64,000 nucleotides of DNA, from contig NZ_SRKZ01000011.1 in the NCBI RefSeq assembly GCF_004745865.1, positions 1-64,000 on the forward strand, in the 5' to 3' direction. This document shows, piece after piece, positions 59,976 through 64,000 of this stretch. Source of the stretch: Hymenobacter wooponensis. Lineage in GTDB: Bacteria > Bacteroidota > Bacteroidia > Cytophagales > Hymenobacteraceae. The notes under the pieces are model-generated. The model was given only the letters and a program-made list of their open reading frames with translations. It was not told the origin of the DNA and did not search any database. The stretch's first letter is position 1, and the number at the start of each line of letters is the position of its first letter. A program made the translations under genes and the position numbers.

Positions 59976-61028
59976 ATGAGTAAATCCCTACGCAACGTGC
60001 CAGCTGTAACGACGGGCTCATCAGTCGCTGCCAACTTGGCGCGGGCTTCCTCCAAAGTGGCCGGTTTCCTGGAAACGGGCCTGCAGGGTGCCGCCAACAC
60101 GGAGCGGGCTTATAAGTCGGACCTGAACACCTACGCCGAGTTTTGCGCGCTGCACGGATTTACGGCAGTGCCGGCCGACGTCACCACGCTGACGGAATAC
60201 GTGGCCTACCTGGCCTCCGAAAAGCCGACTCCCGATGCAGGGGGCAGTAGGGAGAAAAAGAAGGGGCAACAACCCCTCACCAGGCCGCACGCGCTGGCCA
60301 CTATCCGGCGGCACCTTGCCGCCATCCGCAAGGCGCATCAGCTCAGCGGCCACTCGATGCCGGCGACGGTGGATGCGCTCAACATCGTCATGGAAGGCAT
60401 TGCCCGCACCCTGGGCAAGCGGCAGGACCAGGCGCTGGCTTTTACCGTCGAGGAGTTGAAACAGGCCATTCGTAGCATCGACCTGGAAACGACGGCGGGC
60501 CTGCGGGACCGGGCGCTGCTGCTGGTGGGCTTCGCGGGGGCTTTCCGGCGCTCCGAACTGGTGGACCTCAACATCGAGCAGTTAGAATTCACGGAGCGGG
60601 CCTTGCTGGTGCATCTGGCCAAAAGCAAGACCAATCAGTATGGCGCGGTGGAGGACAAAGCCATTTTCTACGCCCCCAATGCAGATTTCTGCCCCGTGCG
60701 CTGCCTCCGGGCCTGGCTTAATCTGCTGGGCCGGACCAAGGGGCCGCTGTTCGTGAAGATTCCGCGGGCGACTCCGGGGCAGATGGCTGCCCCTTCGGAC
60801 AAGCGCCTTTCGGATATTTCCATCAACAAGCTGGTGCAAAAGCGCCTTGGCTCGGCTTACTCGGCTCACTCATTGCGGGTATCTTTTGTGACGGTAGCCG
60901 TGCTCAATGGGCAATCCCACAAGGCTATTAAAAACCAGACCAAGCAGAAAACGGATGCTATGATTGAGCGCTACACGCAGCTCAACAACGTGGTTTCGTA
61001 CAATGCTGCTCAATCTCTCGGGCTGTAG
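59976..61028 (+). CDS. Tyrosine recombinase (integrase)
   Basis: The product has 350 residues. N-terminal core-binding domain (about 25-130, with TERAYKSDLNTYAEFC). The catalytic domain shows R191 in FRRSEL, the K in LAKSKTN (216-218 region), H298 and R301 in AHSLRVSF, and nucleophile Y333 in IERYTQ. The usual second His/Trp position (GHK) is Gln324 in TKQKT. It could integrate the element or resolve multimers. No att duplication was identified. Confidence 0.88.
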   Translation: MSKSLRNVPAVTTGSSVAANLARASSKVAGFLETGLQGAANTERAYKSDLNTYAEFCALHGFTAVPADVTTLTEYVAYLASEKPTPDAGGSREKKKGQQPLTRPHALATIRRHLAAIRKAHQLSGHSMPATVDALNIVMEGIARTLGKRQDQALAFTVEELKQAIRSIDLETTAGLRDRALLLVGFAGAFRRSELVDLNIEQLEFTERALLVHLAKSKTNQYGAVEDKAIFYAPNADFCPVRCLRAWLNLLGRTKGPLFVKIPRATPGQMAAPSDKRLSDISINKLVQKRLGSAYSAHSLRVSFVTVAVLNGQSHKAIKNQTKQKTDAMIERYTQLNNVVSYNAAQSLGL

Positions 61029-61216: not shown

Positions 61217-61258
61217 ATGCGCGTTCTCCTCGACACCAACATCGTTATCCACCGGGAA
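61217..61258 (+). pseudogene. PIN-domain gene, N-terminal 14 codons only
   Basis: The frame reads MRVLLDTNIVIHRE, the first strand and catalytic Asp (DTNI) of PIN-domain ribonucleases. From 61259 the sequence turns into transposase coding DNA in another frame. The rest of the PIN gene is not found after the transposase, so it has been deleted as well as interrupted. The original was probably part of the defence-type locus that continues with the helicase. Confidence 0.65.
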
Positions 61259-61259
61259 C

Positions 61260-62391
61260 GTGACGGTCGATACCCCGCGCTACTACTTGCCGCCCACCGA
61301 GGCGGGACCGAAGACCTTCAGTCCCCTGCAGCACCTGTTTCCGCAGCACGTGACGCCGGAGCGGTTGTATTTGGAAACCAAATGGGCCAGTTTGATTCCC
61401 TACCAGAAAACGGCCGATTTGCTCCACGACGTGTTGCCCATTGCTGCGAAGCTCACGGGCACGACCATTCAGCAGCACCTGCACGCGGTGGTCGAAGCGC
61501 AGGAACAGCAGCTGCCCGCGGAAGTGTCCTCTTTTCAGGGCGTTTGTCAGCGCGACCGCGAGGCCTTGCCGTGCCCGCCCCGCCCGCTGGTGGTCGGCCT
61601 CGACGGCGGCTACGTCCGGCACTGGCATAAGAAAGGTTGTTTCGAGGTGATTGCGGGCAAAAGTATTCCCGCCGAAGGGACTGCCAAATGCTTCGGTTTC
61701 GTGCAGGAGCGATGCCAAGCCGCGCCGACGGGTGTTCGAGGTCCTGCGCTCGCAAGGCTTACAGGCCAATCAGTCCGTGGAATTCTTTACCGATGGCGCC
61801 TCCATTCTTCGGTCGCTGACCAGTTATTTGAGTGCGGAGTCCACCCACATCCTGGACTGGTTTCACCTGACCATGCGCCTGACGGTGCTGCAGCAGTACG
61901 CACTGGGCTTCGCTCATGTCGACGCGGCCGGTGCAAAAGCGCTGCAAGACGGCTTGACCAGCATCAAATGGCACCTCTGGCATGGCAACGCCGAGCGGGC
62001 CCTGGAAAAGATACTGGACCTGGACGATATCCTGGCTACGCACCAAGACGACCCGCTCGTAGCCAAGAAATACAGCAAGTGCAAGCCGTTGGCCCGGCTA
62101 CTGGCTGATTTTCACACCTACGAGGAGCAAAACAGCGGCTTCATCGTGGACTACTCCGAGCGCCAGCGCTACGGCGAACGCGTCTCCACCAGCTTTGTGG
62201 AGTCGGCGGTAAATCAGGTGCTGGCCAAGCGAATGGTGAAGCGGCAACAAATGCAGTGGACCAAAAAGGGCGCGCATCTGCTCATACAGGCCCGTACCAA
62301 GGTGCTCAACGAGGAATGGGAAGACTGTTTCCGGCAGCAGTATCCGGACTTCCGGTCAGTGCCAACGGAACCGATGCAGATGGCCGCCTAA
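61260..62391 (+). pseudogene. ISKra4-family transposase, truncated and frameshifted
   Basis: Frame 1 (61260 to about 61710) carries TFSPLQHLFPQHVTPERLYL, ETKWASLIPYQKTADLL and GLDGGYVRHWHKKG (first Asp); frame 2 (about 61705-62391) carries DAKPRRRVFEVL, FFTDGASILRSL (second Asp) and ESAVNQVLAKRMVKRQQMQW (Glu). The switch falls near 61707, where FVQERDAKP would need two extra bases. About 100 N-terminal residues expected in the family are missing and no terminal inverted repeats are apparent. The element is dead. Confidence 0.8.
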
Positions 62392-62656
62392 ATCCATTGC
62401 CCCACACTTTTTGATGCTCTCCATACAAGCCTTCCTATAACAGCCTTTTTAAGCTAGATTCAGACACCTCAATAATGTCAACGTCATTCATAGTTAAGCC
62501 TAGTTAGGGACCGCAAAGTGTATGATTGCCAATTTTATTGGTTTTGAATCAACTAAAAATATTGGCAAAGAGCGCTTCTTGCCTTCGTCGGCTTTACAGC
62601 TACCTTTGATACTGTCCCAAGTTGGCCTTTTTTGGTAGAAGCTTTTTTTGCCCACT
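62392..62656 (+). promoter_or_regulatory. Intergenic region with helicase promoter
   Basis: The 265 bp are AT-rich. TTG (62579-62581), 19 nt, then TACCTTTG (62601-62608) is a full -33/-7 promoter 48 nt before the ATG. The right end of the insertion element must lie in the first part but cannot be placed. Confidence 0.7.
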
Positions 62657-64000
62657 ATGCTTAGTCTCGATGCTATCCGTCCCCGGATGTTTTTACGGGG
62701 TATTTTGTCCGACCAGATTGTTCAGGTGATTGCGCTGGAGCATGCTGGACCTGATGCGGCCACATTGTATTTTAAGGGGGCAGACGGGCGTCCAAGCGAA
62801 CAGTTTTTATCCCGCGCCGACGAAGCCAAGCTGGACGAAGCAGTAGCAGAACAACGCCCGTGGACGTTTACCGGCGATGCCTCTCAGTTCATCTTGGCGA
62901 CGGAGGCCCACCGCATTCGCCTAGCCCACTTGTTTGACCCGATGATGGCAGTCCACACATCGGACGTGGAACCGCTACCCCATCAGATTACAGCGGTCTA
63001 CGAAACCATGTTGCCTCGTCAACCATTGCGGTTCGTGCTGGCAGATGACCCAGGGGCTGGAAAAACCATCATGGCAGGCCTCCTAATCCGGGAGCTAACC
63101 ATGCGGGCCGATGCTCAGCGCGTCTTGATTGTTGCTCCTGGTAGCCTGGTCGAACAGTGGCAAGATGAACTGCTGCAAAAGTTTGGGTTGGAGTTTACCA
63201 TTTTCTCCCGTGACCTCATCAACCAGTCGCCTACAGGCAATGCCTTCGCGGGCCACGACCGGCTGATTGCCCGGCTGGACCAACTTAGTCGAAATTGCAC
63301 TTCGGGAAAAGACGAGCCACCAGGCCCCTTAGAGGAGCTACTAGATGCTTCCCGATGGGATTTGATTATTGTCGACGAGGCCCATAAAATGGCCGCGCAT
63401 TGGAGTGGGCAGGAGGTAAAGCCCTCCGACCGGTACCGACTTGGCATGAAGTTGGGCAAGTTGACCCGCCACTTCCTGCTAATGACTGCTACGCCGCATA
63501 ATGGCAAGGAGGAGGACTTTCAACTGTTCATGTCGCTACTTGATTCGGAGCGATTTGACGGTAAGTTTCGGGATGGAGTACACCGGGCTGACGTGTCGGA
63601 CTTGATGCGCCGCATGGTTAAAGAGGACCTGCGCACGTTCGACAATAGGCCTCTTTTTCCAGAGCGTAAGCCTTATACGGTACTTTACGATTTGTCCTCC
63701 GCCGAGCAGGCGCTCTACGACGCGGTGACGCAGTACGTGGAAAACGAAATGGATAAGGCCGACCTTATCACGGATGGGCGTCGGCGCAGTGTTGCAGGCT
63801 TCGCACTGACTTCGTTGCAGCGCCGCTTGGCTTCTAGCCCGGGTGCTATCTACAAGTCGCTACGGCGGCGTCGGGAGCGACTTGAGGAACGGGTAGTGCA
63901 GGAATTGGCCCGCGTCGGAGCCGATGGAAGTATTGTGGCCAGCTTCACTTCGTTTGACTTGCCAGACGATTTGGATGAGGACCTGCCAGCGGGCGAATAC
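62657..64000 (+). CDS. SNF2/DEAD-type helicase of a defence island (partial)
   Basis: The frame runs 448 codons to the window edge with no stop. It has [31 protein letters not shown] (Walker A PGAGKT at 132-137), IIVDEAHK (DEAH at 240-243) and [22 protein letters not shown] (motif III), then [14 protein letters not shown] and [30 protein letters not shown]. Relatives of about 900-1100 residues occur with DNA methyltransferases in DISARM class 1 (drmD) and DUF1156 loci. The AT-richer composition than the sulfur region points to transfer. The rest of the system is outside the window. Confidence 0.8.

Follow-up and report, generated by a model that had tools for sequence, protein, structure and literature searches.

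A probable complete Hma (Type-1 BREX-related) operon on a probable conjugative plasmid of Hymenobacter wooponensis, followed by a separate candidate defence gene

Hma was named as a candidate defence system in PMC8565338 (in the part that treats it), and the corresponding section of PMC12839542 classes it alongside BREX, under the name of Type-1 BREX-related (BR) system. It is thought to be a restriction–modification (RM)-like defence that marks self DNA and destroys unmarked DNA: according to the proposal outlined in that section of PMC12839542, self is marked in BR systems by the methylase, scanning and assembly fall to the DUF499 ATPase, and degradation to the helicase–nuclease; an experimental study backing an antiphage role of HmaA is also cited there. 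Some Hma members carry an N-terminal HEPN domain on HmaC, and for BR proteins more generally a TUDOR domain, an inactive REase and a C-terminal RRM have been described. Type-2 BR systems have a DUF3780 gene and an N-terminal HKD nuclease on the helicase, whereas Type-3 BR and BREX systems have PglZ and iSTAND/BrxB-type genes; the ATPase, methylase and helicase of BREX type 3 are homologous to those of Hma (PMC12839542, same section). A related SNF2 helicase (DrmD) is found in class 1 of DISARM, a system that has DrmB (DUF1998) and DrmC (phospholipase D, PLD).

The DNA analysed here – a window of 64,000 nucleotides, positions 1-64000 of the 89,352-bp contig C2 (one of 20 in a 6.0-Mb genome), whose coordinates continue those of the window – ends inside the first gene of such an operon. 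This gene, hmaA (62657-66235, plus strand; 1192 aa), has its first 448 codons within the window (62657-64000) and about 2.2 kb beyond its edge. On the same strand, and wholly outside the window, it is followed by hmaB (66254-69118), encoding a DUF1156 methyltransferase, by hmaC (69166-72027), encoding a DUF499 ATPase, and by a gene for a predicted membrane protein of 515 aa that we call gene 4 (72109-73656). Pfam assigns SNF2, Helicase_C and a C-terminal NOV_C domain (residues 1056-1144) to HmaA, DUF1156 to HmaB and DUF499 to HmaC. The PADLOC profiles of the family match all three proteins nearly end to end, with 1688 bits for HmaA (residues 1-1183 of 1192), which excludes a chance open frame, 1471 bits for HmaB (3-953 of 954) and 1269 bits for HmaC (3-952 of 953). 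We conclude, with high confidence, that the locus is a complete Hma (Type-1 BR) operon, hmaA–hmaB–hmaC, in the cargo region of a probable conjugative plasmid, and that gene 4 is separate from it.

An earlier note, made from the window's letters, had proposed that the helicase at the edge starts a defence locus, and that this acquired-looking operon continues past the edge. Both ideas are borne out: HmaA matches at 1688 bits from the ATG at 62657, and hmaB and hmaC come next. The note suggested reading on for methyltransferase and DUF499 genes, which are both there with full-length PADLOC matches, and for DUF1998 and phospholipase D genes, neither of which was found. It would have been given up had no defence-type genes followed; hmaB and hmaC do follow.

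Compared with the Hma or Type-1 BR set, the operon has the same three genes in the same order, with full-length matches: an SNF2 helicase with a C-terminal nuclease domain, a DUF1156 methylase and a DUF499 ATPase. No difference in the core was found; here a solitary gene of another family comes after hmaC. There is no room for a HEPN domain on HmaC, as the profile match begins at residue 3. Of the Type-2 features, neither DUF3780 nor HKD has a Pfam match in the four proteins from hmaA to gene 4, and PglZ has no PADLOC or Pfam match in the same four, between which the gaps measure only 18 bp (hmaA–hmaB), 47 bp (hmaB–hmaC) and 81 bp (hmaC–gene 4).

The catalytic motifs are intact. In HmaA, motif reading and homologue alignment find the Walker A, DEAH and motif VI of the motor, together with a nuclease motif D...LEVKG that appears as IEVKG or LEVKG in 12 of 12 aligned homologues; from these motifs, the C-terminal NOV_C domain is a predicted PD-(D/E)XK nuclease. 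HmaC has GGGKTH and the DE of Walker B. Conservation was judged in 12 HmaA, 16 HmaB and 21 HmaC homologues, where the columns were present and with gaps set aside; two HmaA homologues have QRMGRIHRYGQ in place of QRFGRIHRIGQ, three HmaB homologues have DPPYYDA in place of DPPYYDN, and HmaC homologues differ from one another in Walker B around the DE. No sequence relative of HmaB or HmaC was found in the PDB at E≤0.001. The methylase motif of HmaB, DPPYYDN, is likewise intact. A DPPY motif favours amino-methylation. The Hma methylase is termed m5C in the relevant lines of PMC8565338.

Because it is taken from the proposal in PMC12839542, we infer rather than observe the mechanism of this operon. 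HmaB would place N6-methyl marks on host DNA at target sites, and HmaC, an ORC/BrxC-like AAA+ ATPase, would scan DNA and assemble the complex. HmaA would then translocate as an SNF2 motor on unmethylated incoming DNA, which its C-terminal PD-(D/E)XK nuclease would cut. Modification, sensing, cutting and phage resistance are thus attributed to this operon by analogy with the family literature; what is observed is which genes it has and in what order, that they belong to the family over their full length, and that their catalytic motifs are intact.

Contig C2 also carries TraM and DUF4138-type conjugation genes, a TraG-type coupling protein, ParA and a Rep3-type initiator, and because of these conjugation, ParA and Rep genes we read it as probably a conjugative plasmid. 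Eight Hymenobacter plasmid records share short parts with the stretch L002:1-16500. Beyond gene 4, a Fic protein is encoded on the minus strand at 74522-75931 (L002:16523-17932), with a Pfam Fic match of 4e-12 and a match to the VbhT model of 1e-39 that lies under the model's cut-off. An ORF with a P-loop at its start, also on the minus strand (82778-83758; L003:4779-5759), is presumably zeta-toxin-like. Near the conjugation genes, both are possibly effectors passed between cells by conjugation.

The probable conjugative plasmid and the nearby Fic-type gene lend some appeal to the idea that hmaABC serves plasmid competition or maintenance – by blocking incoming plasmids or in an addiction-like manner – more than phage defence. 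We regard this as improbable: in its section on these systems, PMC12839542 treats the family as phage defence and cites experimental support for HmaA, and an RM-like system would hit both phage and plasmid DNA.

Gene 4 is parted from hmaC by a strong hairpin with a 14-bp stem (72052-72083). The listed ORF is 13 codons longer, and the start at 72109 is preferred because Bacteroidota homologues begin at the same ATG and the extension runs through the hairpin; hydrophobic stretches cover residues ~16-35, 38-70 and 91-113 of the longer ORF. Lying 81 bp past hmaC on the same strand and inside the same pair of insertion sequence (IS) ends, gene 4 could be the membrane effector of a four-gene Hma variant, and transmembrane proteins in known systems are indeed believed to be effectors (PMC9122126, in the passage concerned). 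However, blastp and the family profile find a gene 4 relative at none of the 21 Hma places fetched, 16 of which extend 1 kb or more past hmaC; the ORFs read near the 62% identical relatives (L016, L017, L018) and near the relative in L021 include no Hma genes; and the hairpin stands between the two genes. A four-gene system is therefore unlikely, and the idea of gene 4 as an Hma subunit was rejected as the main reading on its absence from the 16 informative Hma loci: judged from these comparisons, gene 4 is hardly an Hma subunit, and we keep to a three-gene operon with a separate neighbour.

That the locus is a DISARM variant has next to no probability and was rejected on gene content: HmaA does match the DrmD models (367 bits in PADLOC, 409 bits in NCBIfam), but the NCBIfam score is under the cut-off of 610, the DrmD scores are far below the 1688 bits of HmaA, the methylase is of the DUF1156 type, and no DUF1998 or phospholipase D gene was found among the operon proteins scanned with PADLOC and Pfam. 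Where the earlier note had placed the helicase family with methyltransferases in DISARM-like or DUF1156 systems, the second half is exact and the first, with no DUF1998 or PLD gene, falls away. Its 'good promoter' for hmaA is a weaker point, a scan of 600 bp around the start finding 0 sigma-70 promoters against 0.9 expected. A possible Bacteroidota-type promoter, TTG-N19-TACCTTTG (62579-62608, plus strand), fits what we take to be the consensus of that phylum. As for the 'AT-richer DNA', this is true of the hmaA leader (40% GC) and not of hmaA itself (~53-60%, against 55-62% in the flanks); clearly AT-richer are the middle of hmaB (47-50%) and gene 4 (45-47%).

The same note was right that the helicase adjoins an integrase and a dead IS. 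The tyrosine recombinase gene (59976-61028, plus strand; Pfam Phage_integrase 1.7e-8) is 81% identical in DNA to a Hymenobacter plasmid gene and adjoins the Hma block, for whose movement it is a candidate only. It is followed by a remnant of a PIN-domain gene of ~12 codons (61217-61252, plus strand, by translation), with a weak PADLOC match to residues 1-16 only, and by a truncated, frame-broken element of the ISKra4 family (61253-62422, plus strand), with IS homology starting at 61253. The transposase (~61253-62390) is broken into two frames, each matching its own part of the NCBIfam model. A PIN toxin was rejected as a component of the system, and the suggestion of a variant system with the PIN remnant dropped, the stub being ~12 codons fused to the dead, truncated IS.

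The ISKra4 element ends in a 27-bp right terminal repeat (62396-62422), of which a second direct copy lies at 73716-73742, 59 bp past gene 4 and in the same orientation. We read the 27 bp as an IS terminal repeat because, with one mismatch each, they form the inverted ends of an intact element in Hymenobacter sp. NBH84, whose ISKra4 transposase is accompanied by genes for a resolvase and pRiA4b ORF-3. The hma block and gene 4 thus sit between two right ends of the IS, which suggests a transposition spanning everything from the left end, now missing, to the more distant of the right ends. A 2.9-kb Hymenobacter element of ISKra4 type (L086:1290-4172) has resolvase and pRiA4b ORF-3 genes between such 27-bp ends, and a 114-bp pair of these ends on contig C4 (L088:286-399) resembles a miniature derivative.

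The occurrence of Hma in the genus and the phylum is patchy. Counting the own genome, HmaC has relatives in 5 of 120 genomes from the genus at E≤1e-50 and, at E≤1e-100, in 17 of 395 from the phylum; relatives of HmaB occur in 54 of 72,556 PLSDB plasmid records (E≤1e-100), 16 of them from Thermus. The A–B–C order recurs in the other Hma loci fetched; of the 12 whose fetched stretch includes both hmaA and hmaB, 9 have one to four extra ORFs between these two genes. In five loci from one genus of Bacteroidota (L064, L065, L066, L070 and L071), the genes that recur at this place are presumably, from their sequences, AAA-type ATPase and HNH-like genes. Two loci (L074 and L075, from genomes G207 and G270) have hmaA and hmaC homologues with no hmaB detected between them, followed by recombinase-like ORFs, and are possible methylase-less Hma variants. 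The extra ORFs between hmaA and hmaB fit the statement, in the relevant passage of PMC12111858, that Hma operons host embedded defence genes.

Gene 4 itself has no match in Pfam, NCBIfam or PADLOC 2.0.0. Of its homologues, 8 were compared with PADLOC and gave nothing at E≤1, while 9 compared with Pfam had insignificant matches at most. Gene 4 does match phrog_13820 (function unknown; 5.3e-13 over residues 4-386), as do all 8 of the homologues scanned. Phage and prophage proteins of enterobacteria form the core of this PHROG model, against which the E. coli-type homologue (L023) scores 1099 bits; gene 4 is a distant, plasmid-borne member. In the alignment the family shares the motif W.PVGD ... 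F..MV.E.I ... HMWL.Y, with invariant H, W, L and Y. The predicted model of the Bacteroidota homologue L018 is poor (pLDDT 64) and that of L023 better (pLDDT 75); both are almost wholly helical. Foldseek at E≤0.001 gave no PDB match for either model and no BFVD match for that of L018, and no sequence relative of the family was found in the PDB at E≤1. The top VIA-align rows are helical repeat proteins (Z of 12.3 for Sec7, 11.2 for condensin and 11.1 for the SSU processome), and since they reflect a common arrangement, no function can be assigned from them. Among the plasmid and E. coli matches listed, relatives carry the annotation hypothetical, and a literature search found no mention of phrog_13820 or of three homologue accessions; WP_064317491 is a neighbouring toxin gene and no gene 4 homologue.

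Members of the family are found in bacteria, archaea and prophages. Gene 4 has a match in 3 of 395 genomes of the phylum, and its family profile in 2 of 291 of the order, own genome included in both counts. Relatives with 62% identity occur in Olivibacter sp. XZL3 and an uncultured Cytophagaceae metagenome-assembled genome (MAG), one with 61-62% in Thermoflavifilum thermophilum (genome G007), and others with 50% in two further MAGs; at ~20% identity follow proteins from Klebsiella plasmids and phages, Agrobacterium, Sphingomonas, Rhizobium and Halobaculum. The Thermoflavifilum relative is flanked by attC-like repeats and accompanied by an integrase gene, which may point to an integron. This locus (L018:1-21542) is an integron-like cassette array with, 5.8 kb on from the gene 4 homologue, TIR and short Argonaute genes, and with type I RM genes upstream. 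On Rhizobium leguminosarum pRLN3 (L010:9164-12478), the homologue is directly followed by a hypothetical gene of about its own length (553 aa) that has no PADLOC or PHROG match.

Viral contigs hold no match for the homologues of own, haloarchaeal or alphaproteobacterial type or for that of L013. The E. coli version, which comes from viral contigs, is present in 84 of 5426 complete E. coli genomes, and 8 of its 87 places were opened. Four are islands with inovirus-Gp2-type genes, and one each is a Rac-type prophage, a plasmid with phage-type replication genes, a shortened copy adjoining IS1, and a P2-like prophage in which the gene is flanked by tail-fibre assembly genes on one side and sheath genes on the other. 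This slot, which we take to be the position of fun in P2, is probably the 'fun' defence hotspot. A second P2 defence hotspot, holding fun, is reported in the pertinent part of PMC9519451.

Known defence genes lie near several of these relatives: PD-Lambda-1 is two genes away in L021, with a PD-(D/E)XK/NucC-like gene between; SPARTA-type TIR and short Argonaute genes are 5.8 kb away in L018, which also has a type I methylase; and a type I REase, a type IIG enzyme and Shedu are found in L016, L009 and L008, respectively. The Rhizobium locus gave only partial GajB-like helicase matches, and the Halobaculum and Cytophagaceae MAG loci nothing strong in the single neighbours scanned with PADLOC; a restriction endonuclease neighbouring the enterobacterial relative in L032 has no PADLOC match. 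Strong PADLOC matches (E≤1e-100) are thus found near six of nine loci (own, L021, L018, L016, L009 and L008; not L010, L011 or L017), a count that covers loci scanned at least in part, with neighbours picked by eye. Outside this count stand L007, L013, L019 and L020, the loci from enterobacteria, and those from Klebsiella, G014 and two MAGs.

As a control, 88 ORFs of at least 200 aa were taken from eight arbitrary 20-kb segments of three genomes. Among them, each of three PDC-M16A models has a single matching ORF (E≤1e-100), which may be the same ORF for all or a different one for each, so that between one and three of the eight segments are positive; when ten ORFs of 827-1141 aa were scanned one at a time, the matching ORF was not among them. 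The one-sided Fisher p value is 0.036 with one positive control segment and 0.24 with three, or 0.059 and 0.31 without the own locus, neither the gene 4 loci nor the control segments having been drawn at random. The association with defence genes is therefore suggestive: it reaches significance only if a single control segment is counted as positive, and the sets are non-random, so an excess is not established, and for this reason we lowered our estimate for a stand-alone defence gene from even to a little short of even.

On that tentative footing, gene 4 may be the plasmid copy of an unnamed stand-alone, membrane-tethered defence family of Bacteroidota, Proteobacteria and haloarchaea, travelling singly via plasmids, integron-like cassettes, defence slots of prophages and islands. 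The helical solenoid of the protein would sense something made by the phage, and the membrane helices at its N terminus would deliver the block, be it membrane disturbance or injection exclusion. The gene is a candidate, its role read from context.

The Hma operon described here is a standard member of a published defence family rather than a new one, and its interest lies in extending the range of a known system to a probable Hymenobacter plasmid. The real novelty of the locus is confined to gene 4. Neither it nor the homologues tried match a PADLOC or Pfam model, yet its family has one E. coli copy in a probable defence hotspot and others near defence genes in unrelated phyla.
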